From NCBI GenBank assembly GCA_934045905.1, contig OW203768.1, positions 28,549,060 through 28,613,059 of the forward strand: a stretch of 64,000 nucleotides of DNA, written 5' to 3'. A program made the translations under genes and the position numbers. Shown piece after piece: positions 2,295 through 31,435 of this stretch. The first letter of the stretch is position 1. Every line of letters starts with the position of its first letter. The notes beneath the pieces were generated by a model. The model was given only the letters and a program-made list of their open reading frames with translations, was not told the origin of the DNA and made no database searches. The DNA is from Leuctra nigra (taxonomy: Eukaryota > Arthropoda > Insecta > Plecoptera > Leuctridae).

Positions 2295-3540
2295 TCTATT
2301 CAGAAGATGTTACATTTTGTACCTGATATTTATTGAGGATTAATGAAACAATTTTAAATTGCCATTATGATTCTAGGTATTGTTAAACACTGGAAAGTAC
2401 ACTTCTTCCTCCTCTGCAGTTATACTTCACTCTTCCTTAGCAGTACTCAACTCATTGGTATTTCTGTCTTGCAACTTTCGTAAACTCTAATCATTGACAT
2501 TCCCTCTATGTTTTGATAAGCTACGCACTGCTATAACGGCAACATTGAATGATCTCGTTTATAATGAAGACCCTATCAATTCTGTTACGATCACGTTGTG
2601 TCTTCATATTTAAAACACGGCCGTAAAAGAAGCATATTGTTGTACTGTGTCATTTTTAATGCAATTTGGTAGAATGTAAAACAATCTTCACCGTTTCAAA
2701 GTTGCCTTGGTCCATTTCCATTATGATAAGACGTGACGGCGCGCTTTGTCATTATACATCGACGACAGAGCTACTTATCCCAAACATATCAGAACGAGTC
2801 ATTGTTCTAATAATATGAATAGAAAAATTGCTTCTTCCGTCACAACATGCACGATCGATGTTCCACGGTTTGTGGTTATTCCATTTCATATAGTTGGTTA
2901 TATTACAAGGCTCTAAAACTGGTTGTAGACTTTCTCTTAACTATCTCAAACTTGTTCTAGCTTGAGGAAAATGCCCAAAGATAATTTGTTTTGCAGCAAC
3001 GCACCAAGATACAAACTCAAGACTTCAGAACGAGGGTCTATAATGTTGGTTCTTGCAATGCTGTAACTTATCGCGTTAAAAGCAAGAGATTGTACTTACT
3101 TACTTTAATAGCAAGGAATTGTACTTACTTACTAGTGCTATTCCGATGTTTTTGCTTGTCATTTCTTTGCTTACAATTTTCTCTCAGACCACATCATTAT
3201 CCTCAATATCCACGACAACCATAAAAAGTACAATTCAGTTGAATTGTCGGGAGGATTATTGTGGATTCGTAGTTGTTTTAGTTTGAATAATTGTTTAGTG
3301 AATGTGCATTGTTTTTAAGTCGGTTATTGCATTTATGATTTTAATGTGATTGTTGGTAAGACTGAACTAGATACCTATTTATATATAGGGTTTCGCAGTG
3401 GTACATTCGCCGGTGATCGTTTGGGAGTCTGAGTCGTGGTTATGAGGCATTATTAGTACTTATATTAACATCTTTCTCCAACTCCTTTCGTAATTTACTA
3501 TTCAACAAAATATCTTCTTCTGCTTGAACGGCCTTCGCAC
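1624..3540. other. Largely unannotated stretch with one solo TIR end
   Basis: Apart from the membrane-protein exon at 2084-2294, I see no gene. At 1871 the sequence CACTCGGCCAAACA directly follows a TA. It matches the terminus of the TA-flanked element at 50747-53819, so it is probably a solo or truncated end of that family. The short ORFs here have no recognisable motif. Confidence 0.4.
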
Positions 3541-3870
3541 CTATGTGTAGGTCTTAGCAGTGACGACAATCTGCCTATATGTGTCTCGAAGCTGGCCTTC
3601 TAAAATCCAGTTCTGGACCCCCAGACTCAGCAGGTCTCCGTCGATGTAGTTCTGCCACTTGGTGCAGGGCCATCCGAGTGGTCTTGAGCCAGGAGCTTTC
3701 GAAGAAAGCTGGGTGTTGGGATTAGACTGTCTTATGGAGCCCGGACAACGTGGCCAGCGCATCTTGGCCCCTGGGCCTTCACTCAACGCACCAGGTTCTC
3801 CGGACGAAAAGCTCCTACAGGTTGGCGTTAGTTCTCCCTCGCCACACCCAGCGTCCTCAGCCAACTTTAC
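3541..3870 (-). pseudogene. Non-LTR retrotransposon C-terminal remnant
   Basis: The minus-strand reading ends with a segment containing KWQNYIDGDLLSLGVQNW and TYRQIVVTAKT. This matches the tail typical of LINE reverse-transcriptase ORFs (a W..YIE.DL..LGV.NW...R..WR.IV..AKT pattern). The canonical basic GRPR..W segment has decayed to RPLGWPCTKW, and no RT core lies upstream. It is a 5'-truncated, old copy; the upstream half of the open frame is not recognisable. Confidence 0.55.
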
Positions 3871-4164
3871 TTCTTACAAACCTAATGTCGTTTTTTCATT
3901 TTCATTCAGTTCACGACATTCTGTAGCAACACCAGTTATGCAATTCACTTCTACTAACAAAACTGAACACATCCAAATAAATACCGTTCACATATATTGG
4001 GTGATCAGGAGCTCATGTTGATCACTTCCCAATCATCATGAGCTTTCAATTGGCGAGTTCATTCGGGAAATGGCTGTAGTTTTGAAAATTACATAATATT
4101 TCATTTCTAGACAACAGCAATTGATTTTGATGTCGTGGACGTTTCCGGATTTATTACAATTGAT

Positions 4165-16704: not shown

Positions 16705-17911
16705 CCCAGAAAAAAACACTCCGTGTAAAAACGGCAGCCAAGTCTCTTTACTTTAAAAAAATTCTGCACTGAAAAGGAGTGATATCAAAAAAGGAGCCAA
16801 GTCAATGACATTTCCAAATATTTAATCGTACCTTGAAATAACAAATGAAAGCCACCAGAGAAATACTTAAAAAAAGGACTTGGCGCATCGTTTTTTTAAA
16901 GATATTTTCCTATCCTAAAAGTAGAAACAACTAGGTATGCGAGAAGTATATTTTCTATATTATATCTGTCTACTAGAGTCTATCGATGAATCATGCTACT
17001 TTATATGATACCTATACTCAATATTAGCGCTATACTCTTACTAATGGCCGTTTTGTAATTTTGCCAATGCGAAAGAAGAAATATTTCTTGGTGTAGGTAG
17101 TAGATAAGTAATTTCAATTGCGGATTGAATCAATTACATGGAAGAGGGCTCGTATATTCACATGTTAATGTTCCCATATGGTCATATTAGTAAAGTATAT
17201 TCTCAGAAGTTGCATCTTGACTGAGTGAAATCACGAACCATACACATAGAATATTCTGTGCCCATACAAGAAGGTCGTCAATGGGATCTAACACGGGCAT
17301 CCAGAGTGCACGTTTAGATGGTTGTAGACTGAGCCAACTTGCTCAAATAGTTCTAACTATCTATTGGAACCCGTTATTTCACTTTTGAAGTTTCAAGTTT
17401 CAAGTTTATTTCCAATTACATAACAAATCAATTAATAAGTAAATACATTTGTTTTGCAGTGACCCCTAGGATGCTCTCATTGTTAGGGTTAAAAATTGAC
17501 GCATGAAATTTTAAATTTGAGTAGAAACTCAATATGACTTCACTGCATAAACATGAGTATTCTGTATTTATTGCAAACAAGGATAATGAACATGAAATAG
17601 AAAATAGTTTACTAGATGTTTAATATTTAATTGTATTGTTGTGTCATTATTATTCAAGGCATTTCTATATTGAGGTAACTAGTGAGTGACATAAGCTTTG
17701 GAATAGGAAAATATCTTTAAAAAAACGATGCGCCAAGTCCTTTTTTTAAGTATTTCTCTGGTGGCTTTCATTTGTTATTTCAAGGTACGATTAAATATTT
17801 GGAAATGTCATTGACTTGGCTCCTTTTTTGATATCACTCCTTTTCAGTGCAGAATTTTTTTAAAGTAAAGAGACTTGGCTGCCGTTTTTACACGGAGTGT
17901 TTTTTTCTGGG
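16705..17911. mobile_element. TIR element with about 210-bp inverted termini
   Basis: CCCAGAAAAAAACACTCCG at the left reappears inverted at the right. The arms extend 16705-16914 and 17702-17911, ending in 'aaagatattttcctat'. It belongs to the family of the 5092-10725 element. The 790-bp interior has no ORF. It lies in intron 2 of the decayed ML-like gene. Confidence 0.8.
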
Positions 17912-18730
17912 ATATCACGTCTTTTTTTAGTAGCTTTTTGTATGTATTTAGACTTTGTATAAAATTACATAATTACATCAAATGAATAGAATTTTGAGAA
18001 AGTGGTTATGTTATTATTATTATTATTTATTTTCAAAACACCAAAAAATATACAGTGTTTTGCTGGTAGTGGGAATAGGACAATCCCCATAGCACAAGTG
18101 CCCCACTACCAGCTGTAAAATAAATATACTATATAAATTATAAATGGCATATATATAAATATATATATAAATGGCATTTGATGTGGTTTAGTTTGATTTC
18201 ATTTGGATTTCATTTTAGGTTTTTTTCCTTGTTATGGTGATACTCGACGGATTTGGTCAAACAATATAATATTCAGTTGTTCAAATTAAATCGAGACGGG
18301 TTCTATTAAGATTTTATATGAAGAATTGTATTTCAGTTTAATAGCATGTAAGCAACAATCACTTTAAAGTTAAATTAGGCTTGTGTAATGTTCGAGTGCA
18401 GGTCTTCTTGAGCAAACTTGTTACTGAATTGTCACTCCAGACGTCCATACCAGAGAGTAGGTTACTTCTTTTGAAGATGAAGTCATTCTTGTGTCTGTAC
18501 GGAACAAGATGCATGTAGTTAGTTAATGCAATCTATTGCCCATTTTAAAATGTATTGCATTTTAGATAACGATACTTGTATGTTAATTGTTGAAAATTAC
18601 GAAACTTTTAGAACATGTCGTTTACTGAGCAAAATATTTTTAAACATAATTGGTATGGTATTGCCGTATTACTACCATTAATGCTAAGAGTAAATTATTA
18701 TGATATAACTTGCCTCATTGATGAACGATG
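17912..18730. other. AT-rich intronic stretch with a small hairpin
   Basis: (ATT)n sequence at 18012-18030 precedes a small hairpin, 'ctggtagtggg...ccccactaccag' (18063-18113). An (AT)n-rich tract lies at 18140-18175. No gene seen. Confidence 0.4.
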
Positions 18731-18959
18731 TGATGCTTCAGTGAATTTGTTGCTTGATTGCATTTAATTTACAATTATCGTGGATGAAATTGGCTGCGTG
18801 GCCATTATTTATGCACCATCCCGGCATTTGCCTTGACGAATAAGGAAAACCACGGAAAACCTTATCAGGATGGATGGTCGGCATGTTATATCGATTCGAA
18901 TGACAGTTCAGAGATGTCTGCAGTAAGTCATTGAAGAAATGATGATATTGAAGGATCAA

Positions 18960-19430
18960 TGTTGCGAGGAAGCTGATCTTCAACAATGTCTTCAACTGGT
19001 AGATCGAAGTTTGATGAAGTCTTGTAACAAACGCCGAGCTTATATTTGATGTTATGGAAGGATTAATGTTTGCGAGGAATCTGATCTTCAATTATGTTTC
19101 ATCTGGTTGATCGAAGTTTGATGAAGTCTTGAAAGTACAGTCGAGCTTACATTTGTTGTTATGAAGTCTTGCGGAGCTTGTTATGGAATGATCAATGTTT
19201 GCGAGGAAACTGATCTTCAACGATGTCTCAACTGGTGGATCGAAGTTTGATGAAGTCTTGTGGAGCTTGTTAGGAGGGATCAATGTTTGCGAGGAAACTG
19301 ATCTTCAACGATGTCTCAACTGGTGGATCGAAGTTTGATGAAGTCTTGCGGAGCTTGTTAGGAGGGATCAATGTTTGCGAGGAAACTGATCTTCAATTCA
19401 ACGATGTCTCGACTTGTGGATCGAAGGTAT
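18960..19430. repeat. 88-bp tandem repeat, five units
   Basis: Units contain 'gcgaggaaactgatcttcaa', 'tggatcgaagtttgatgaag' and 'tcttg.ggagcttgtta'. Starts at 18964, 19072, 19201, 19289 and 19377 give spacings of 108, 129, 88 and 88 bp, so the array is homogenised at its right end and diverged at its left. The minus-strand frame stays open over part of it, which probably follows from the repeat structure. It may belong to the 3' part of the minus-strand Helitron. Confidence 0.8.
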
Positions 19431-20239
19431 ATGTAGTTGTAGAGCCCTAGATGTTACTGTTGCATCAATATTCTCCCTATAGAAATGTGCTTGGAGACTT
19501 GGAGATTCTGAAAACAAATCGTTTGTTAAGTGATTGTGATTGTGAATATTTTTGTTTGAAAATATTGTTCTGTTTAAAGTACCTACTTACTCTCACATTT
19601 GGACGCAAATTGCACATATATCCTCGAAGACATCGAAATAGATTTGGTTTGTATCAAGGATAGGTAGTTTCTTCACCATGAAAAGCTCTCTTCGTATCTC
19701 TCAATTGCGTTCTCCATTGGAAGTTTGAAGTAAGATCGTACATACTCGAAGACACCGACATTTATTTGGCTTGAATCAAGGTAACTTTTTCTTCATATCT
19801 CTCATCTCTCTTCCTTTCGTCCTTCATTAGTGTTTTCATGTAATCTTATTGTTGTCTCAACTCCAACCAGTTTCTTTATTAACTCAGTGCTACCTTTGAA
19901 TATTTTGAGAGAAATGTACAATGTACAAATATGAACATACAATTTGTATTGATTCCTAATTGAATGTAGATTTTGACAGTTGTTCGTCTTTTTTTGTACT
20001 TTTTTTAACAGTTTTAATTTTGTTATGTGATAATCTACTAGTTGAATGTATGCTTTAATATTAATTTATATATTTTTTATATTTTTTAACAGTTTGTTTA
20101 TTTTCTGTTTGGTTTAATTAATAGAATATGCGTATTAACAGTGAGCTATTTTTTCTATTACGAACAACTATACATTCACAAACAATAATCTAATTTCATG
20201 TTGTCATTCACAAAAATGATAATTTGATATTTACTTTAT

Positions 20240-21090
20240 ATCCATTTTTTGTTCATTATTTGCCCAATGTATGATCTGTGAAATTGAGTAAGATGGACCT
20301 CCCACGTACCACCCTTCCATCATACCATGCCATTTGTCAGTAGATGCAAACTTGGTGACAATTTGGATTATATATTCACAGAACATGTAGTGTTATGTAC
20401 GAACATGATTAGATTAGGTAATAAATTAATGCACGTACCTTTTGCAACTTTATTTCTTACCTTTACCTCGGCATTGATTAGACCAGTTTGAGGTAGAATA
20501 TGCCATGGCATTAAAGCATTTTGTTGCATTTGTGGTATCAATTATTGATATTCCTCAAGTGTAATAGCAACATGTATAGATACTTTTTTGTTTGGATCAT
20601 TATTTGCCCATTGTCTGTTCTGTGAAATAGAGTAAGATGGACCTCCCACGTTCCACCCTCCCATCTTACCGAGCCATTTGTCTGTAGCTGCAAACTTGGT
20701 GACAAATTGGATTATATATTCACAGAACATTTAGTGTTAGGTATGTACGAACAGAATTAGATAAGTAATCAACTCATAATGCACGTACCTTTTGCAACCT
20801 TATGTCTTACCTTTACCTCGGCATCGATTAAACCAGTTTGAGGTAGAAGGTTCCATTTAATTGGAGCGCTTGGTTGATTTTTGAAATATTCACTGATATT
20901 CCTCGAATACAATAGCAACAATAACAGGTACATTTTGTTGGAATATTTATCAGTCGAGACTCTGTTCTGTGAAAGAAAGTAGGTGGATCCTCCCACATAC
21001 CACCCCATCCACCTTACTTTATTATTTGTCTTTGCTGCAACTTTGTGACAAATTTGATTATTTTCACAGAACGTGTACTCTTATCACTGG
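20240..21090 (-). repeat. Three tandem ~345-bp repeats, coding-like on the minus strand
   Basis: 'gatggacctcccacgt' and equivalents lie at 20291, 20635 and 20981, spacing 344 and 346 bp. On the minus strand each unit encodes a similar segment: FCEY.IQFVTKFA, then W.VGGPSYSISQNR, then LPQTGLI.AEVKVR.KVAKGT. Stops interrupt between segments. The W..GG pattern is faintly like the C2-like domain of calpains, but I would not assign it. GGTAAGA donors follow 'gccgaggtaaag' in two units. The array sits just downstream of the Helitron ORF and may be captured host exons or an untranslated array. Confidence 0.6.
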
Positions 21091-21126
21091 AGCTCGCATT
21101 TCACTGATTACATGATATGTGTTGAT

Positions 21127-24100
21127 TTACATTTTCTTCAGGATCAACATGTACATATCTTTTGCGAGTGTTGGCCATTTGCTGGACTCGACAATCTCGT
21201 CATTGGCATGTAGCCACCGTGTTCCGTCTTTCAGGTAACAGGTGTAATGTCCTTTGCTGATTGAAGAGCCGTGGTGAAACACAGCTGCCATGGGAACGTA
21301 GGAAGCGTCGTCAATCTTAATATTGATTTTAGGCACCTCGGCCACTTTGACACTCCTTTTGTTCAATCCATTAGTGAACAACATGAGTTGCATCACTATC
21401 AAGTCACTGGCTCTTGTGACGTTCATGCGTTTCTTTCTCGTCTCTTGGTTACACTCTGAACATACGTAAGAGCGTTCGTCCCATGACGTTGACATGTCAT
21501 ACAACTTTTGCATAGTGTACCTTTCCTTTCGGTTTTCAGGAACGTACAAGCGCAACAATTTATGATTTTCGCTTTCTCCAACTGAACTGTAACCACAGTG
21601 TTGCGAAAAGCATCTCGTTTCAGGAGTCAGCTTCAGCTGTGTTGCATTTTGCACAGAACTTGACAGAGTTGCCAGTTTCTCGAAGAATTCTACAGCACAT
21701 TGATGTCCTCCACCAGGTTGGAAATAACCACCGGCTAGTTCGCGCACCATGGTAGAGCTCATTGTAGAATTTCCCTCGGCATACTCAATGGCAAGTTGTT
21801 TGATTTCTCTGGGGTTGACGTCTTGTTCGTCAGTTGCCAGCTCGTATCTCAGAGACTCACAGTGTAGCAAGCTCTGTAGAACTACGTTTGCATAGCACGA
21901 TTCATCGTCTACATTGTTGAACCCCCTCATGATTCGTAGTGGGCGTCGTGCCACAACTGCAGCAGTTTGTTCAGCAGCAACAGCGTCCTGAACCAAGTCA
22001 GCTTGGATGTTTGCGGTCCACGGTCTATCCATGACTCTACGTCGGTTGGATGGACCGTTGGTCTCCAGGAGGCACAGATCTGGCCTGTATTCGCGTCTCA
22101 GGCGATTGTATTCGACAATTGCGCTCGGGAGTGCTTTGATTTCCCTCGGGTCGAAATTAATTAGATGAATACCATCCAACTGAGTGACGCGGGACAGAGC
22201 GACGTAAGCCTGACCCTTTGTGAACACTGACGATCCTATGTCAATGATTGCAGAGTTCAGGCTGAGTCCCTGACATTTATGTATGGTGATTCCATACGAG
22301 ATTGTGATTGGGAATTGCTCTCTCATCACATAAGCTCCATCAATGGGCTCAAATTTGCCACTCACTGGCTGAAGATCATGGATGTAGCCAGAAGCAAATC
22401 GGGTGTTGATGGATTCGACCTCGGCATTGTTGTCAATGCTACGCTTGACAGACAAGACAGTGCCTATGGCGCCATTCACCAAGCCGAGAGTCACGTCAAT
22501 GTTTCTACACAGCATGATTCGGCAACCAATTTTGATGGTGACGATCTTTTCGAGGCCGGCTGTTGTCGAGGAGTCATCCTCGTTCTTGTCTATCCACGTG
22601 CTCACTCTCTTTTTCAGAAAGTTTTTCACACATGACAGATCGTCCTTGGCCAAGAGTTTGATTTCCTCTGATTCGATCGTGTCCAGCATTGCCTTGTTCA
22701 ACACTTTGCACATGTTGCGCTTGGGCAACAGGCACACCGTGTCCACAGGCAGTGTGTTTATGTAGACACAGATCTCGGTTAGGATTTCTCCGGGCGTTTT
22801 GCCAGCGAATTGAATCTTCCTCGCTTCCAACAACTGGGTATCGGTTTGCGTCAACAAACCGAGCCTGATTCTGGACAACATGTCTACGAATGTAGAGTCG
22901 TTTAGCTGTCTCATGTTGATCCCGAGCTCATCGTAAGAGAAGAGCTCATGCCACAGATTGATGGCGCTGAGTGACCCCACGTACGTGGTGATGTCGTGAT
23001 CGGATAGTTTGACAAACGGTGGCTCTTGGTGCACCGGCGGCAACTGGAGTAGATCTCCAAACACGAGAATGTGTATCTTGCCGAACCATCCGTCACTTGA
23101 GTCTCGGGTGGCATATATCTCAGTCAATCGTAGGTGAATGTACATGAGAGTGAGATTAGACACCATTGATATTTCGTCGATGATGATCAGTGCCACATTC
23201 TTCATGTCGCCTCTGATAACCTTCAGTACTTGGTCTGACAATTCAGTGTACTTTGGCGTCTTCCTGTGCTCGACGGGAAGCTGAAGAAGACGGTGTATTG
23301 TCAAACCGCCGACGTTGTAAGCCGCTATTCCCGTGGGAGCACTTACGGCGACATCTTTTCCAAGTTTGGTTTTTACCCACACCTTGATGGTTTTGATGAG
23401 GTAACTTTTACCAGTACCACCCGTCCCACTGACAAACTGTCTTAAAACCTTGCCAGTGGAGGCAGTATCTGTGAGAATATCGACGACGTTGTCGAACACT
23501 CGTTTCTGATCAGAGTTCAGAGCTTTGACCATCTCGTCAACATCCTCTTGTGCAATTTCATCGCAACAAGCAGCATCTCTGAACTCTTGCATGGCCGCGA
23601 CAACTTCTACGGGCTGGAACGCCAGTGGGTTGTCAGGTGCATTGTCGTCCTCGTCATTCGAGGTTTCTTTTTCGATTTCTGCAATCCTTGCAGCAATCAA
23701 CTCTCGGGCGAGATCGGTTGCCGCTTGCAGGTCGGTGATCGTCTTGTCGTGCTCGATTGCATCGACGAGATCATCTTTGCACGAGGCAAATGCAAGTGCA
23801 TACGAGTCGTGATCTCCTTTCAGCTCGTCAACATCTCGCCACGTCTTGAACATGAGCAACAGCGAGAAGTAGTACTTCTCGGGATTCTGGTTCACGTTGT
23901 ACTTGTAGTGGTTGATCAAGTATTTACGTGACCTTTCCTTGAGGAACCTGCCGCTCGGGAGTTCGTACACTTTGAACTTTTCCTCGTTTGGTTTGTCTCT
24001 GACGATGTCGAAAGAAGCAACAAAGTCAAAGAGATGCATGTCCTCCAACTCGTCTGGTCGATTTGGATAGTGATCATCGACCCATGACTCGTAGAAGATG

Positions 24101-27100
24101 TCTGTTGCATCAGCTGACATCTGCCTCATCTGATTGCGCGGCTTTAGTCTGCGGTTTCTGATCATGTTCACGTCCAACCATCGGATGGTCGTGTCTGGAT
24201 CTGTACCGTGCAGAGAAATGCCGAGAAGGGTGTCGCTACATTCGAGAGCTCCGCATTCCCTGTTATTCAGTGCACGCAAGCCGACATTGAACAGTCGGCT
24301 GGCCAACGATTTTGTCGAGTTGATATCGTCAAACGTTTCGGTAGCGTGGCTTTTCTCGCTCTTGGTGGTGTATTTGGTAATATACCAGTTGAGCATTGCC
24401 GTTTTCTCACCAACGAACTGAATGTCCACATTACCATTCCAAGCCAACAAGATGGCTGGATTGTAGTCGTTGATGTTGACCTCGGACTCTGCTCGTGGCA
24501 AGTCGTAAAGACGGCTGTTTGATTGCAGAGTCTTTCTGCCGGCGATTGACACCGTAATGTCTCTCAGCACGAGTGTCTCGGTCGCAGGGCGTGGAAACCC
24601 AAAACGACACACTTTTCTGAATCCAGACTTGGTTTTCTTGTTCCTCTGGCAGTATGAATTGTCCACGTGCTTCTGATACTTGACAACTCTGTTGTGCAGA
24701 GTAGGACAAAGATTCTCATTTGGTATTTTACACGTGCAATACGTGGTAATGAATGAGGCTACCTCCTGATTGGTCGACTGACCAAGTATCGGGGAGCCAC
24801 TCACCCACAGTAACATGTGGAAGTGTTGATTGCCTCGGCCTTGGTATTCACGACGCCAAAAGTAGTGTGACACCTTGCCTAGAGGCGCGTCGTCTGAAAG
24901 AATTAACTTCAGCAATGCATGAAACTTGTTGTCCATGAATCTAGAAGTGGACACTGGGTCCAGTGCTACCAGTTCGCTGACTGACTTGTTGGCGAATTCT
25001 GGACCATTGACGTCACGTATGTACTGTCCCAAATCGTCCCAATCCCATTCACTGGGACTGACGGTGAGGAACCACGTGGCCGGACCGTAATAGGCGGTCA
25101 TGCAATTCAAATCATTGCGAGGAGCCACCCAGTATTGCTCGGTGTTGCGAAGGCGGGAGAAGATGGTCGTGAGACAACCCTCCAACTCTTCGCTTGCAAT
25201 CTTTGCCAACACACTGGCTACGGTGTATTTCTCTCTGGGATTAATTACGTTCATTTTCTGAAAAATCCCAGCGCTCAGCTGACGAAGATTGGCATCATTC
25301 AACAGGTAGAACAAGTACTGTTGGTTCAGCCTGAACTGAGAATGTTTGGACATCAGTTTTGTTTTTATGAACTCTGCCGACTTGAGTTCGACAGTTCGCT
25401 TGTGAAACTGACCGAATTTTCCGTCGACAAACAGATCAGAGAAGCATTTCACGTCCAACTCACGATCTCGGGAGTCGATCGGTGCCTCGTTCACTTTCAG
25501 CATCTGATAGAGTGCGCACGCGCTCTGGTTATCACGTGGTTCGTGTAACGGATAGATAGTGAACTGTTCGTAGGCTGTTTCTGCGACGGCGGAATCAACT
25601 TGAGTCAAAATACCTCGCGTCACTTCACCAGCTACAACTTCAGTGGCACCAACAGGTGGTGCACTCGTATCGACTTCGGATTGAATTTGAAATTCAACAT
25701 CGTCGCCGTCATCGAATGCGTCCAGAAGATTCTCTGGCGATCCAGGCAGTTGGATTTGTGCATAGAGTTCGTTTGTTGTTTTGAGTAGTTGCAGAGCGGC
25801 AAACACTTTGTTCACATCAACAAAGTTTTCCCAGACAACTTTGGACTTTGTCGGAATTCCGCGTACCAATATGTACAACTCTTGATCCCTCATTATGGGA
25901 TCGAGAGGTGATGGCAGCTTCTTTAGAGTTTCCTCTAGTGGCAAAGGCAAATGAAAGGTCCTGCCCTTCACCTTCTTCACCCTATGGCTATGGGGCACGT
26001 TTCTACGAGCTACTGTACCCATGCTTGTTACCACTTGGAAAGCTTTCGCGCGTTGTATCAGTATCTTTTCGTAATCGTTGAGAACGGTTATCTCTTTTGG
26101 ACGTGGCTGAACGACAAGGTCGTTTGAAACGCACGTCGAGGGTAATTCACGCTTTCTAAACTTTCCCACGCAGAAGTGGCAAATGAACTCACTTGGTTCC
26201 ACATGTCGGCTCTCATTGAATTCGAGGAAACGTTTCCAATGCGGCAACGTTTCGGGGTTCAAAGGCTTCTTCATGTTGCTGAACGCGGTGACATCGCGTT
26301 TGTAGCAAAGCTTTTCACAAGAAATGCACGCGTACTTGGGCAAGTCCAGTGAATGCTTGGTGAAAGCTTTGAATGCATTCTTGTTAGAATAAAAGATTGC
26401 AGTCTCACTCATTTCGTTCTCGCAAGACACGTGTTGATAGGCATTTGCTTTACGTTCAGTTAATGAAGCCAGCGATCTAAGTTTTGAAACATCACAAAAC
26501 TTTATTGCTTGGTCAAGTTCTCGCCTCTCTTTGTTTGCTGCACGCAATTTGTATAGAGTGTTCACTAAGAAGCGTACTTCGTGATAGTGAGGAGCTAGTG
26601 TTCTCAAAAACAAAAGCTTTGATGCACAACACTTGTGCGAAACGTGGCAATCAATTGGATGACCTTGTTTGTCAAACCGCATGAACGTTGCTATCTTGCT
26701 GCAAGAAGCTAAATCAACAACTAGATCTACGGCCATTTTAGTAGTGCATGTTGAGAAAGTTCTCACGACCTGTTGCATTCGATTCGTGATGGCCTCTTGG
26801 TCAACGTTACACAAGTCTTTGCTGCATGTCCAAATGTCAGCAGACCCTTGTGGGTGTTTTTTCGTAAATGCGGGCTTGAAAATATTTGCTGCCTCGCCGT
26901 GTTCATTAATAGCGATTGGTTCATTGCTATTCTCGTACACTTTGTACGTGTATTCGTAGAAATAGGGCTCGGAGCCTGCCGTGTGCAAAGACGGTCCGCA
27001 CAAGGCGGTCATCTTGTCGGCATTGACATTAGATTTGCACTCGGCTAGTCTAGTCATGGCGACTGTGCAAGCCTCTCTCAACTTTGACAGACACTTTTTG

Positions 27101-28134
27101 AAGGTCACGACATACTTCTTGCGTGCAAACATGCACCATTTTAGTATTTTCTCGGCGTCAATGCGATCATCGACTGCGTTGTTTCCATGCAACTTAGATG
27201 CAAGTTTGGCTGTGGCCCGTTCAATTGAGCCCCTGTATCGCAAACAATCGACAGTACGACTGTACTTTTTGCGAATGTTGCCATAAGCTCTAAGATTCCT
27301 CCTTCTTGCGTTAATACTGTTCCTAGCTGCACGGTATCGTTGCAGAACAGCTTCTCGCCTTGCTAGAGTGTTGGCTTTGTAGGCTGCCCTGTTCAGAACC
27401 CGTCTTTGTTCAGGGTTTGCTCTGTGGGCTGCCCTGTTCAGCACCCGTCTTTGTTCAGGGTTTGCCTTGTGGGCTGCCCTGTTCAGCACTCGTCTTTGTT
27501 CAGGGTTTGCCTTGTGGGATGCCCTGTTCCGCACCCGTCTTTGTTCAGGGTTTGCCTTGTAGAAGGCCCTCTTGTGCGCCTTCACTGGTTCAGGATTAGC
27601 CTCGTAGGCAGTCCTCTTGTGAGCCAGCAGTGGCTCAGGATTAGCCTCGTAGGCAGTCCTCTTGTGAGCCAGCACTGGCTCAGGATTAGCCTCGTAGGCA
27701 GTCCTCTTGTGAACCAGCACTGGCTCAGGATTAGCCTCGTAGGAATCCCTTTTCCGCCTATTAATTGGGTCGGGATTTGCCCTGTAGACAGCCTTTTTGT
27801 GCTCCTTCATAGGTGCAGAGTTCTCACTATAGGCTAGTCTAGATTTTATGCGCTTTATTCTAGATTTAAGTTCATTAACAGATTGCGCCTTGGCATGATT
27901 GTCACCAACTGACGAATACCTTGCAACTTTACAATTGCTGTTTTGATCTGAAGTCTCAACAACATCACCTGATTTTCGCTTCATCCCGAGAGATGGCGCA
28001 GTGTGTGTCGCAGTAGACGTGTCAGCAGGAGCAGTCTCAACAGTCTCATTGCCGCCATTAGACGCAATAATTTCTCTCTGAGATCTGACTTGCAAACGAA
28101 CTCGTTCTCTCCTTTTCTGAATCTTACTAACCAT
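21127..28134 (-). CDS. Helitron transposase: HUH Rep nuclease, PIF1 helicase and USP-like protease
   Basis: One uninterrupted ORF encodes 2335 residues. Residues 1-110 are basic. Residues 118-255 are about nine 15-residue repeats (Y.ANPEP/Q....KR type). Residues 600-660 hold Cys pairs (CISCEKLC, CHFC) like the zinc-binding segment before Helitron Rep domains. The Rep domain (about 1000-1260) has the HUH motif H1104-F-H1106 and the two-tyrosine motif YITKY (Y1251, Y1255), so rolling-circle nicking residues are intact. The helicase (about 1535-2010) has Walker A GTGGTGKS (K1576), DEISM (D1653-E1654), GDLLQLPP, GITIHKCQG and QAYVALSR. Residues 2070-2335 form a ubiquitin-specific-protease-like domain: Cys box DDESCYANVVLQSLL (C2080), Cys pairs at 2175/2180 and 2225/2228, and His box KGHYTCY (H2296) with W2307 and D2312. 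Helitron fusions to OTU proteases are known; a C19/USP fusion is less familiar. Element termini were not found. Confidence 0.92.
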   Translation of the reverse strand: MVSKIQKRRERVRLQVRSQREIIASNGGNETVETAPADTSTATHTAPSLGMKRKSGDVVETSDQNSNCKVARYSSVGDNHAKAQSVNELKSRIKRIKSRLAYSENSAPMKEHKKAVYRANPDPINRRKRDSYEANPEPVLVHKRTAYEANPEPVLAHKRTAYEANPEPLLAHKRTAYEANPEPVKAHKRAFYKANPEQRRVRNRASHKANPEQRRVLNRAAHKANPEQRRVLNRAAHRANPEQRRVLNRAAYKANTLARREAVLQRYRAARNSINARRRNLRAYGNIRKKYSRTVDCLRYRGSIERATAKLASKLHGNNAVDDRIDAEKILKWCMFARKKYVVTFKKCLSKLREACTVAMTRLAECKSNVNADKMTALCGPSLHTAGSEPYFYEYTYKVYENSNEPIAINEHGEAANIFKPAFTKKHPQGSADIWTCSKDLCNVDQEAITNRMQQVVRTFSTCTTKMAVDLVVDLASCSKIATFMRFDKQGHPIDCHVSHKCCASKLLFLRTLAPHYHEVRFLVNTLYKLRAANKERRELDQAIKFCDVSKLRSLASLTERKANAYQHVSCENEMSETAIFYSNKNAFKAFTKHSLDLPKYACISCEKLCYKRDVTAFSNMKKPLNPETLPHWKRFLEFNESRHVEPSEFICHFCVGKFRKRELPSTCVSNDLVVQPRPKEITVLNDYEKILIQRAKAFQVVTSMGTVARRNVPHSHRVKKVKGRTFHLPLPLEETLKKLPSPLDPIMRDQELYILVRGIPTKSKVVWENFVDVNKVFAALQLLKTTNELYAQIQLPGSPENLLDAFDDGDDVEFQIQSEVDTSAPPVGATEVVAGEVTRGILTQVDSAVAETAYEQFTIYPLHEPRDNQSACALYQMLKVNEAPIDSRDRELDVKCFSDLFVDGKFGQFHKRTVELKSAEFIKTKLMSKHSQFRLNQQYLFYLLNDANLRQLSAGIFQKMNVINPREKYTVASVLAKIASEELEGCLTTIFSRLRNTEQYWVAPRNDLNCMTAYYGPATWFLTVSPSEWDWDDLGQYIRDVNGPEFANKSVSELVALDPVSTSRFMDNKFHALLKLILSDDAPLGKVSHYFWRREYQGRGNQHFHMLLWVSGSPILGQSTNQEVASFITTYCTCKIPNENLCPTLHNRVVKYQKHVDNSYCQRNKKTKSGFRKVCRFGFPRPATETLVLRDITVSIAGRKTLQSNSRLYDLPRAESEVNINDYNPAILLAWNGNVDIQFVGEKTAMLNWYITKYTTKSEKSHATETFDDINSTKSLASRLFNVGLRALNNRECGALECSDTLLGISLHGTDPDTTIRWLDVNMIRNRRLKPRNQMRQMSADATDIFYESWVDDHYPNRPDELEDMHLFDFVASFDIVRDKPNEEKFKVYELPSGRFLKERSRKYLINHYKYNVNQNPEKYYFSLLLMFKTWRDVDELKGDHDSYALAFASCKDDLVDAIEHDKTITDLQAATDLARELIAARIAEIEKETSNDEDDNAPDNPLAFQPVEVVAAMQEFRDAACCDEIAQEDVDEMVKALNSDQKRVFDNVVDILTDTASTGKVLRQFVSGTGGTGKSYLIKTIKVWVKTKLGKDVAVSAPTGIAAYNVGGLTIHRLLQLPVEHRKTPKYTELSDQVLKVIRGDMKNVALIIIDEISMVSNLTLMYIHLRLTEIYATRDSSDGWFGKIHILVFGDLLQLPPVHQEPPFVKLSDHDITTYVGSLSAINLWHELFSYDELGINMRQLNDSTFVDMLSRIRLGLLTQTDTQLLEARKIQFAGKTPGEILTEICVYINTLPVDTVCLLPKRNMCKVLNKAMLDTIESEEIKLLAKDDLSCVKNFLKKRVSTWIDKNEDDSSTTAGLEKIVTIKIGCRIMLCRNIDVTLGLVNGAIGTVLSVKRSIDNNAEVESINTRFASGYIHDLQPVSGKFEPIDGAYVMREQFPITISYGITIHKCQGLSLNSAIIDIGSSVFTKGQAYVALSRVTQLDGIHLINFDPREIKALPSAIVEYNRLRREYRPDLCLLETNGPSNRRRVMDRPWTANIQADLVQDAVAAEQTAAVVARRPLRIMRGFNNVDDESCYANVVLQSLLHCESLRYELATDEQDVNPREIKQLAIEYAEGNSTMSSTMVRELAGGYFQPGGGHQCAVEFFEKLATLSSSVQNATQLKLTPETRCFSQHCGYSSVGESENHKLLRLYVPENRKERYTMQKLYDMSTSWDERSYVCSECNQETRKKRMNVTRASDLIVMQLMLFTNGLNKRSVKVAEVPKINIKIDDASYVPMAAVFHHGSSISKGHYTCYLKDGTRWLHANDEIVESSKWPTLAKDMYMLILKKM

Positions 28135-29640
28135 GTTGGCAGTGAAGACGATTTAATGGATTTTATTGTTTGTTAACAGAGTATAACAATGTTTAACAAT
28201 ACCTAGTGCTGGCAATTAAGAGACAGGCTGCCTGGCAGATTTACACTAGATTATGTTTACACTTCAATTGGGAAGCATAAACTCTGTGCATATCATTTTA
28301 CCAGGTGCAGTGATTCCTATTGTCTCTCAAGAGTAGGCTCAATAGACTCACTGTACCGAATGAAGAGACTAATTTTGTTCAATTCAAGCTGAGATGGCTT
28401 TGATCCTCCCAATTTGCACTTAGTGAAGGAACCTTCTCCCGGTCGCGATTGAACACTAATCTCTTAACAAACTGAACAGCGAGTTGGCCTCTATTGAGCC
28501 TGGGCAAAAGTATACAAGGTACCTCCTCCCCGCATCCAGTTGGCTCCAATTGGTCGTATGGCTCCGTGCTTTGTGTGGTCCTGGGGCTCGTATGTCTCGT
28601 GGGCTCGTAGGACCAATAGTTCGTGTGGCTCTCCTCAGCTAAATGGTTTCGTCAACGATTCTCTGCCAAAAATGGCACGTTTCTCTTCAATACTAGAAAA
28701 TTAAAATTACATTTTGTTATAATAGAAAGGCATTAACATTTTACATTCATAGATTAAATTGATATTAACAATTGAAATTAAGTAGGGAGTAGGTATGTCA
28801 TTCCTAGTAAAATTGAGTTACTTTTCAAAGCGATTTGATTTACGTGTTGGTAGGTATATTTTTTATCTGAATAAGAGAGGCATTGTAATCTAAAGTTATA
28901 GGTATAAACTAAATAAATTTACTCTGAATGATCCAGGCTGAGGCTCGTATGTCAAGTATACATATAGAACACGAGTCGCTCGTGAGACTCTCAGCTGTAG
29001 CGTAGCAGTAGTATATTGCGCCAATCAATTTTCCAAATTCCCACTTTCTCGCACGATTCTCTGGCTCAATGGCAACTTTATCTTCAACACTGGAAAAGAA
29101 GAGTTAGATGTAGTTATTGTACAACATTTGAATGAGAGTATAACATTTTTATTCTTAAATTAGGTAAATAGGTAACTTATAATAATGCTGATTGCTACTA
29201 GAGGGAAAAGTTATACCTACCTACCTACCAAGGAAACGTTAGTACAATATGACATTGATTTACGAGGTAGGTAATTATAATAATGTTTTATCGTAATAAA
29301 CGTTTCATAACATCTAAATAATAAAATGTAATAAAGTTTACTCTAAATTATTGTTAATAATTATATAAATCGAATGATTGAAGGGAACATGACTTACCTC
29401 CAGAACGATAAAGTTGTTTATAACTAAAATTTTCATTCCATTCAGTACGCCGTGAACCGCAACCAAGGTTTTTTGATGATCCGCGCACATAATTGCTTCA
29501 CGCGAAAAATTATGAAGGAGTTGGAAATAAAATTATTCAGCATGTGTGTTAATTTGGTCTTGCGTCGCCGTTATGTTTACGTCACTATGATGTTACGTCA
29601 ATTGTAAACATTCCCGTTCAGTCCCATGTCTCTGCTACGC
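28135..29640. other. Upstream flank of the Helitron ORF, with a diverged repeat
   Basis: This is probably the 5' leader of the minus-strand Helitron. Two related blocks at about 28650-28720 and 29050-29110 share 'cgattctctg.c..aaatggca' and 'tcttcaa.act', each preceded on the minus strand by a pyrimidine-AG run, so they look like a duplicated exon or spacer. 'ggctcgtatg' and 'tcgtgtggct' phrases recur at 28550-28640. No protein motif recognised. Confidence 0.4.
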
Positions 29641-30900
29641 CAATTGTAGGTCGGCCTTTAAGTTTCATTAATAGGTATCCCGTCTTCGAGATATGGCATC
29701 ACTTCAATAGCGATTAAAAACACTGTCATCTTGAATTTATAAATATTGATGTTAACTTATCATTATAATTCGTCTGAATGTTGTGATTATTTTATGGAAT
29801 TATGAATTTTGTGAATGTGTGACGTAATTTCTTGTTTTAGAAGTTTGAAACTGATTATTTTATATGGACGACCATCCGAATCGTTTGGCTCTGGTTAATT
29901 GTTATCGGTCTACCCGCTTTCGAGAAATAACTTTACGTCCGGTTGCAAAATAGCGGTTGAAAACAGAAAGACCCATTGAATTGATTTATATTTATTCAAT
30001 ACAAGTCGCCTGAATATTTAATTATTGTATCAAAATGTAAATTTGTGAGGCTTTTAAAATGTGTGACGTCATTTCCGGTTTCGGTATGGGAAACTGCAAA
30101 TATTATTGATGATAATACATAAAGTTGACCGTCTAAATTGTTTAGCGCTGGTTTCGTTCAAATCTATTTAGCCGTTATTGACATATGATGTCACTTCCGG
30201 TTTCAAAATGGCGGCTTCCGGTTGGTTTTATAATAAGTCAAATGAGATATCAAAAGTACATACGTTACATAAATAACAAAATAATCGGATCAAATTTGTT
30301 GCCGAAATGCCAATCGATGTATTTCAAATTTCATGACGTCATTTCCGGTTTCGTTAACATAAATTTTAGTCTGTTGCTATTGATAATCCATATAGTTTAC
30401 CGTCTGAATCGTTTGGCGCAAATTTCGTTCCGATCGGTATAGCCGTTGTCGAGATATGACGTCACTTCCGGTTTCAAAATGGCGGCACAAAAAATTAATG
30501 GGGTGAAGGTTAAATCAGACGCCAAAAGTGCACACGTGGTAAAAATGTGAGATCAATCGGTTCAGCCGTTTAGGCTGTGGCCATGTTACCGGATTTGAAT
30601 TCCAGGAGACTACTACTACTGAGATTATTATTATGAAAACCGCCCTAAAACACTGTTTTCACGGCCCTCTAGCGCGCAAAGGGCGTAACCTATTGTTCCC
30701 AAATTTAGTATATGTTGTAGGGTGGGCCATAGCTCGAAATTAAGATATATCGCAACAATGTGAGATTTTCCAATTTTAAGATCCAGTAGGCCGAAAATGC
30801 CACTTTGATGCTTACAGTAAAAGTGGGTTTGCTCCAGCCTTTATATGAGAGTGTGCGCGCGCCGTACGACTTGGCTGGCGTGGAGCGACCGCTCCACTAG
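29640..30900 (+). mobile_element. Non-autonomous Helitron-like element, family B, plus-strand copy
   Basis: It ends with the hairpin GTGGAGCGACCGCTCCAC fused to TAG at 30900, followed by AT. Upstream are degenerate tandem units of about 240-275 bp, each with 'tgacgtcatttccggtttc' (29820, 30063, 30338) and 'gacgtcacttccggtttcaaaatggcgg' type phrases. The distal 260 bp is an inverted counterpart of 4165-4440. The 5' border is uncertain; I place it where the first unit begins. Confidence 0.55.
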
Positions 30901-31435
30901 ATAGTAACCTATGAGTATACCTTACATCGTTCATGTTGAATAATCCAAGGTGATTTATGAAGAAAATTCACTGCATACTGGAGCTTATCAATATTTGCAG
31001 TCAATAATATTTATTTTTGCAGTGGTTTTATAAATAAAAACAACACAAATCTCGTGTATACGTACGCGTGTGAAGACTGTCAAAACCAAGTGCTGTTCGT
31101 TTAAACATTACATTCATAATAGTGGATATAATTAATATCTCAACATTTCGTTGGAAAGAGGAAGAAAGAGCGCATGTTATACATTAGACATTGCGTCAGG
31201 TTTGTGATGCATATACAAGGATGGTGTAGAACGATTCATGTTGTTTCATATCCGAATAGATGACTACTGCAGATGGGGAATCAAAGAGGAACATGAATTT
31301 TCAAACATATTATTTGGCTCCGGTGAATTTTCAAACATATTATTTGGCTCCGGTAAACTACCACGTAAATGTGTGTTCAAAAAGGTAAACAAAATGTCCA
31401 TAGCTGAGTGTTCAGCAGGAAAGTCCAATACTAAT

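Follow-up and report, generated by a model that had tools for sequence, protein, structure and literature searches.

A USP-type deubiquitinase domain fused to the Rep-helicase transposase of a Helitron in the stonefly Leuctra nigra

The window, a stretch of 64,000 nucleotides of the Leuctra nigra genome (assembly GCA_934045905.1, contig OW203768.1, positions 28,549,060 to 28,613,059), contains a Helitron whose single open reading frame (ORF) encodes a Rep-helicase (RepHel) transposase ending in a ubiquitin-specific protease (USP) domain, with all catalytic residues in place. Our reading, given a probability of about 0.7, is that the USP removes ubiquitin in transposition, probably from RepHel or from a partner protein in replication or repair. 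This reading builds on what the sequences show: the fusion, the family and predicted fold of the domain, its intact triad and zinc cysteines, purifying selection on it, copies that are nearly identical, and inheritance of the USP together with RepHel across many hosts. The ORF and its parts were located in the window as follows:

21127..28134, minus strand: single ORF for a Rep-helicase-USP transposase, 2335 codons open from ATG, 2335 amino acids
27370..27801, minus strand: N-terminal tandem repeats of 15 residues, with a 45-bp period in the DNA
25738..26151, minus strand: DUF6570, residues 662-799 (Pfam, 2.7e-13)
24808..25335, minus strand: Helitron_like_N, residues 934-1109, including H1104 and H1106 (Pfam, 3.2e-21)
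22840..23520, minus strand: PIF1 helicase, residues 1539-1765 (PF05970, 4.4e-27), Walker A K1576, Walker B D1653-E1654
21145..21924, minus strand: USP (Pfam UCH), residues 2071-2330 (7.1e-14)
21895-21897, 21247-21249 and 21199-21201, minus strand: codons of the USP catalytic residues C2080, H2296 and D2312

The DUF6570, Helitron_like_N, PIF1 and UCH matches all exceeded the Pfam cut-offs, with the UCH profile scoring 52.5 bits against a curated cut-off of 23.9. A preliminary description of this DNA had read a 7-kb open frame joining an HUH nuclease, a PIF1 helicase and a USP, and the frame and every residue that it named were found: QHFHML at 1103 (H1104, H1106), YITKYTTK at 1251 (Y1251, Y1255), GTGGTGKS at 1570 (K1576), IIIDEISM at 1650 (D1653-E1654), SCYANVV at 2079 (C2080), GHYTCYL at 2295 (H2296), WLHANDEI at 2307 (D2312), and two Cys pairs (2175/2180 and 2225/2228). 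The Tyr pair lies downstream of the Helitron_like_N match, so that the HUH motif with its two Tyr and the PIF1 helicase stand on one protein. The C-terminal domain was identified as a USP by its UCH score, by residue reading of the C-H-D triad and by a predicted USP fold with four zinc cysteines (2175, 2180, 2225 and 2228); an OTU or other fold for this region was rejected on the same score and prediction. Neither an OTU domain nor an AP endonuclease was matched in the window protein (P0001) in Pfam scans at E up to 1. In the element, tblastn at E up to 1 found nothing similar to the OTU domains of two relatives (P0004 and P0015), and Ulp1-like queries for a second protease returned two chance-level matches only (E 0.50 and 0.64). 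A fold search with the USP model also matched USPs of giant viruses and further papain-like proteases of viral origin, matches that do not inform the origin of the domain.

The complete protein was encoded at three places in the genome, with a rounded identity of 100% and about 99.9% identity across 10 kb of DNA. Four further long copies, one of which contains a stop, encoded proteins 87-97% identical where they matched. These copies exclude a chance joint in the window, and the separate USP gene that could have contradicted the preliminary description did not appear in other copies, which kept the USP in the same open frame. Of 24 candidates scored, 16 were near-full-length family copies of the USP part (77-100% identity), four with a stop. 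The Cys, His and Asp were kept in eight of nine own-genome copies aligned; in the ninth (L008) Cys and His were present and the alignment ended before the Asp. The L005 stop falls at zinc Cys 2175. By the Nei-Gojobori method, the ratio of nonsynonymous to synonymous substitution (dN/dS) of the USP against the window was 0.25 (L004), 0.30 (L006) and 0.27 (L007). The ratio was 0.22 for L004 against L007, 0.07 over 112 codons for L005 (Rep 0.10), and 0.41 for L006 against L007, with five differences only. Values for Rep in the same pairs were 0.05-0.16. Judged from these ratios, the USP is under purifying selection.

Other Helitron ORFs of the same genome (L024, L025, L026, L028 and the shorter L023) gave no deubiquitinase match. 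A partial UCH match (26.9 bits) was seen at C8:10106368-10106820 (L023), about 6 kb from a broken Helitron_like_N copy at C8:10100396 and on the opposite strand. The N-terminal repeats of the window protein have sequence like AYEANPEPVLAHKRT and their matches vary among copies; STPR repeat matches occurred near the N-termini of the related Helitrons L023 and L026.

Relatives were collected by searching proteins with residues 930-1980, the RepHel region, as query; this gave 225 matches, 120 of them listed; for this reason the counts that follow lean to the kin of the window element and are not prevalences. The USP alone as query found no matches in the protein collection, probably because few exact words are shared. 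Using an iterated hidden Markov model, a homologous USP was found in 47 of the 120 listed relatives (48 of 121 with the window), only partially in six of the 48. Among the matches listed, the USP followed the RepHel match in all 48, so the domain order that the preliminary description proposed to seek in other insects exists there and in other animals. The hosts named for the listed USP-bearing proteins included: the ants and wasps Linepithema, Cardiocondyla, Temnothorax, Nasonia, Trichogramma and Microplitis; the psyllids Cyamophila and Diaphorina; the whitefly Bemisia; the sturgeon Acipenser ruthenus; and the sponge Dysidea avara. Environmental samples also contributed USP-bearing proteins, and Parnassius was represented by domain remnants only. 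A Cys box of the form G-F-x-N-x-D-x-V-S-C-Y-A-N was typical of the Helitron USP group. One Helitron protein (P0103, residues 1969-2236) carried the classical GLPNLGNTCFLN box and its USP grouped beside a cellular USP, a placement that mutual attraction of long branches may explain; it is possibly a separate capture.

A FastTree phylogeny of 123 RepHel rows placed the window in a 44-row clade (support 90; 99 for 43 rows) in which 36 rows carried a USP. The single-USP label was strongly clustered, with 38 rows requiring 10 changes against a mean of 32.8 after shuffling (0 of 500 shuffles as low). USP rows were also found at two places in the tree beyond this clade, and five C48-bearing relatives, two of them from Mnemiopsis, formed a separate clade. 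The backbone is too soft to separate one early gain of the USP from a few. USP and RepHel distances were correlated across 42 proteins (Spearman 0.78; 0 of 2000 permutations). Because USPs occupy the same place in widely separated animals and their distances track those of RepHel, the sequences indicate that the fusion is old. The same arrangement in many hosts looks like an old, selected partnership and not an accident. Of the earlier proposal that the fusion was under selection or very young, the first part stands and the second falls; a young or accidental fusion was rejected on the intact copies, the USPs of distant relatives and the tracking of distances.

The triad was read in 46 sufficiently complete USP domains from 42 proteins. 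In 28 proteins the USP was the only protease domain detected, a class defined by searches for OTU, C48 and Ulp1-like domains and not for the viral-type VTDs described below. Excluding three proteins incomplete or aberrant at one position (P0016, P0024 and P0029), C-H-D was present in 24 of 25 sole-USP proteins, P0028 being dead. In the other 14 proteins, the upstream or only USP was dead in 11. Five of these carry an OTU further downstream with an intact DGNCLF box, four have tandem USPs in which the first domain is dead and the second reads C-H-D, and two belong to the four proteins with N-terminal Ulp1-like domains. The upstream or only USP was alive in P0005, P0018 and P0033, the last of which has a second USP truncated by the protein end. 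The association of a dead USP with a second protease was strong (Fisher p 2.4e-6), but the rows are related: seven dead USPs fall in one clade (support 99), so that the count may go back to some two to four events, and proteases unseen in cut proteins could alter the tally. The zinc cysteines were retained in 45 or 46 of the 46 domains, dead ones included.

The N-terminal domains of P0018 (one, residues 1-230), P0005 (two), P0017 (two) and P0035 (five) were related to each other, and P0002 had a weak match to them. They stand ahead of the USP-Helitron part, singly or in tandem, and most were missed by Pfam. Pfam C48 was over its cut-off in one P0035 stretch, with none over the cut-off in the N-terminal part of P0018. 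The His-Trp, Asp and Cys-Gly boxes of these four proteins are presumably Ulp1-like.

The ends of the whole element were placed by alignment of copies:

16705..30901, minus strand: whole Helitron, 14,197 bp, with boundaries common to copies, an A/T insertion and no target duplication
30880..30897, minus strand: palindrome GTGGAGCGGTCGCTCCAC just inside the 5' end (z -1.65; 12 of 200 shuffles equally good)
16705..17911, no strand assigned: 3'-terminal segment flanked by 215-bp inverted repeats (99% identity), each containing the Helitron 3' end

The element begins with TCTAGTGGAG... at 30901 and ends with ...TTTCTGGG at 16705. The 5' TC was preceded by A in all eight copies read (the window, L009, L011, L013, L014, L015, L017 and L019). 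In the six copies with the 3' end read, CTGG was followed by G (two), GA (three) or nothing (one), and then by T, although the exact border with the flank can be drawn only for copies that have an empty site. Two such sites were found: the flanks of the window insertion are continuous in locus L029 (AACTA^TTTC), and the C12:1.345-Mb copy interrupts one unit of a tandem repeat, the intact units having CATCAA^TCAGAT at that point. In both cases the element went in between A and T and duplicated no target bases. Helitrons are defined by a 5' TC, a 3' CTRR, and A/T insertion without target duplication (PMC4067079), all of which were found here. A palindrome of 16-20 nt about 11 bp from the 3' end was not; only a 4-bp stem occurs there, which does not surpass shuffled sequence (z 0.17). 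With this weak 3' hairpin, and a 5' palindrome and large 3' inverted repeat instead, the element is called a Helitron with unusual ends on the strength of its protein and its insertion, the empty sites being those of canonical Helitrons despite the hairpin. It looks like a complete, recently active Helitron and is apparently autonomous.

In the copy at C12:1658640 (L012 1764-2974) the 3'-terminal 1.2 kb is flipped, which leaves the 3' terminus unchanged. Short elements sharing the 5' end occurred at window positions 4164 and 31435 (both plus strand), at L022 ~2619-3946 and at L025 580-1896. The 4164, L022 and L025 elements match the 3' inverted repeats as well (~1.1-1.3 kb) and are likely non-autonomous derivatives; only the first 36 bases of the 31435 element matched.

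Proteases of other classes are known from related elements. The OTU cysteine protease is established in Helentrons (PMC4067079); the preliminary description had called OTU fusions to Helitrons established. OTU-bearing Helentrons and Helitrons (PMC4067079, PMC2836005) resemble the window element as rolling-circle elements with a ubiquitin-type cysteine protease. OTU-bearing relatives sit in the same RepHel tree. The window element differs from OTU Helentrons in its USP-class protease, in having no AP endonuclease match and in A^T rather than TT insertion; on the last two points a Helentron identity was rejected. Zebrafish Helentrons encode VTDs, deubiquitinases of a herpesvirus-tegument-like class that cleave ubiquitin chains, and these are alike in lying within a Helitron protein; the relevant passages of that source place VTDs in Helentrons and no USP in Helitrons (PMC9741609). 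The Trichomonas protein XP_001314237.1 joins a peptidase C19 domain to a transposase, as in the window, but the transposase is of the non-Helitron transposase_11 type (PMC2836005). No report of a USP on Helitrons was found in searches of an open-licence library, a scope that leaves subscription papers, preprints and Repbase outside. With OTU and VTD on Helentrons known and USP unreported as far as searched, the kind of fusion is known and the class is new.

The cellular USP12 and USP46 (PF00443) share about 25% identity with the window USP over a structural alignment, and the Helitron group has its own typical Cys box. USP12 and USP46 work with WDR48 on chromatin and repair substrates, biology that would fit, without proving, a replication-linked role for the Helitron USP. 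In the mechanism that we favor, the putative enzyme, fused after the helicase, would strip ubiquitin during transposition. Its substrate would most likely be RepHel itself, which would be kept from the proteasome; alternatively, the substrate may be a partner protein of replication or repair at the rolling-circle site. Related Helitrons may answer the same need with other protease classes (OTU, Ulp1-type).

Several observations weigh against this reading. Window residues 2141-2150 are GGGHQCAVEF, and the nine own copies have HQCA-VEF or HQCA-ADF; QCA in the window family stands against the QDA of most aligned Helitron USPs, which commonly have QQDA-EF. The Cys box appears by eye to be one residue longer than what we take to be the classical box. 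The deubiquitinase activity and its substrate are predictions, and naming RepHel or a partner in replication as the target is guesswork. The window is sister to six rows with an OTU or no protease detected. Two of these, P0004 (with an N-terminal OTU) and P0003, end 78 and 102 residues past the RepHel match without a USP, so that the domain is dispensable or replaceable; the other four end within or shortly past RepHel and may be cut. In three pairs USP dN/dS was also roughly fourfold the Rep value, though not in L005, so that constraint on the USP looks looser.

The last two points, with USP dN/dS exceeding that of Rep in most pairs, would also suit a captured passenger that the C-terminus tolerates and transposition does not need; Helitrons do pick up fragments of host genes (PMC6431247). 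The USP dN/dS of 0.07-0.30 in five of six pairs (the sixth, 0.41, resting on five differences), the triad kept in the eight own copies covered and in 24 of 25 sole-USP proteins, and the tracking of RepHel distances make a passenger improbable. We consider it unlikely, if a shade less so, that the domain serves mainly to bind ubiquitin or proteins that carry it, such as those on chromatin, and so targets the transposase, with catalysis secondary. Dead USPs with intact zinc cysteines beside a second protease (P0009, P0012, P0013, P0015 and P0030), and likewise the dead first domains of P0034, P0038, P0041 and P0046, speak for such binding, but the window family and nearly all sole-USP proteins keep the full triad. 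Lowest of the three we place a processing module that cuts the transposase polyprotein, like viral papain-like proteases, and does not act in trans on conjugates. The protein is long and multidomain, viral deubiquitinases often process polyproteins too, and cleavage into Rep, Helicase and Endonuclease subunits has been proposed for the Helentron OTU (PMC9741609, PMC4067079). Against it, no LRGG-like site was seen by eye in the helicase-USP linker, and the zinc cysteines persist even in dead domains.

A standalone USP ORF with the Helitron-USP Cys box (P0122; L022 4548-5483, minus strand, C6:1699786) is sister to the window USP (support 87, long branch) and has two split relatives, in L029 and L030; RepHel had no match in the 10-kb loci of the three. 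A short element of the window-Helitron kind starts about 0.6 kb from P0122. The ORF may be a copy domesticated by the host, a remnant, or a relative of the original donor.

Beyond the window, we tentatively propose, at somewhat less than even odds, that a large Helitron clade needs removal of ubiquitin or a ubiquitin-type modifier and that the protease is a swappable cartridge. An ancient USP after the helicase would have been replaced or overtaken in sublineages by an OTU at either terminus, a second USP or a Ulp1-type protease, the displaced USP losing its catalytic residues and keeping its zinc cysteines. If this is true, hosts across the animals control Helitron transposases through ubiquitin, and the same USP may be domesticated (P0122 and its two split relatives). 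The near-identical open-frame copies make enzyme and transposition tests possible. Overall, the USP class is added to the deubiquitinases seen on Helitrons, and the recurrence of unrelated protease classes on one transposase lineage points to a general, testable link of rolling-circle transposition with host ubiquitin control.
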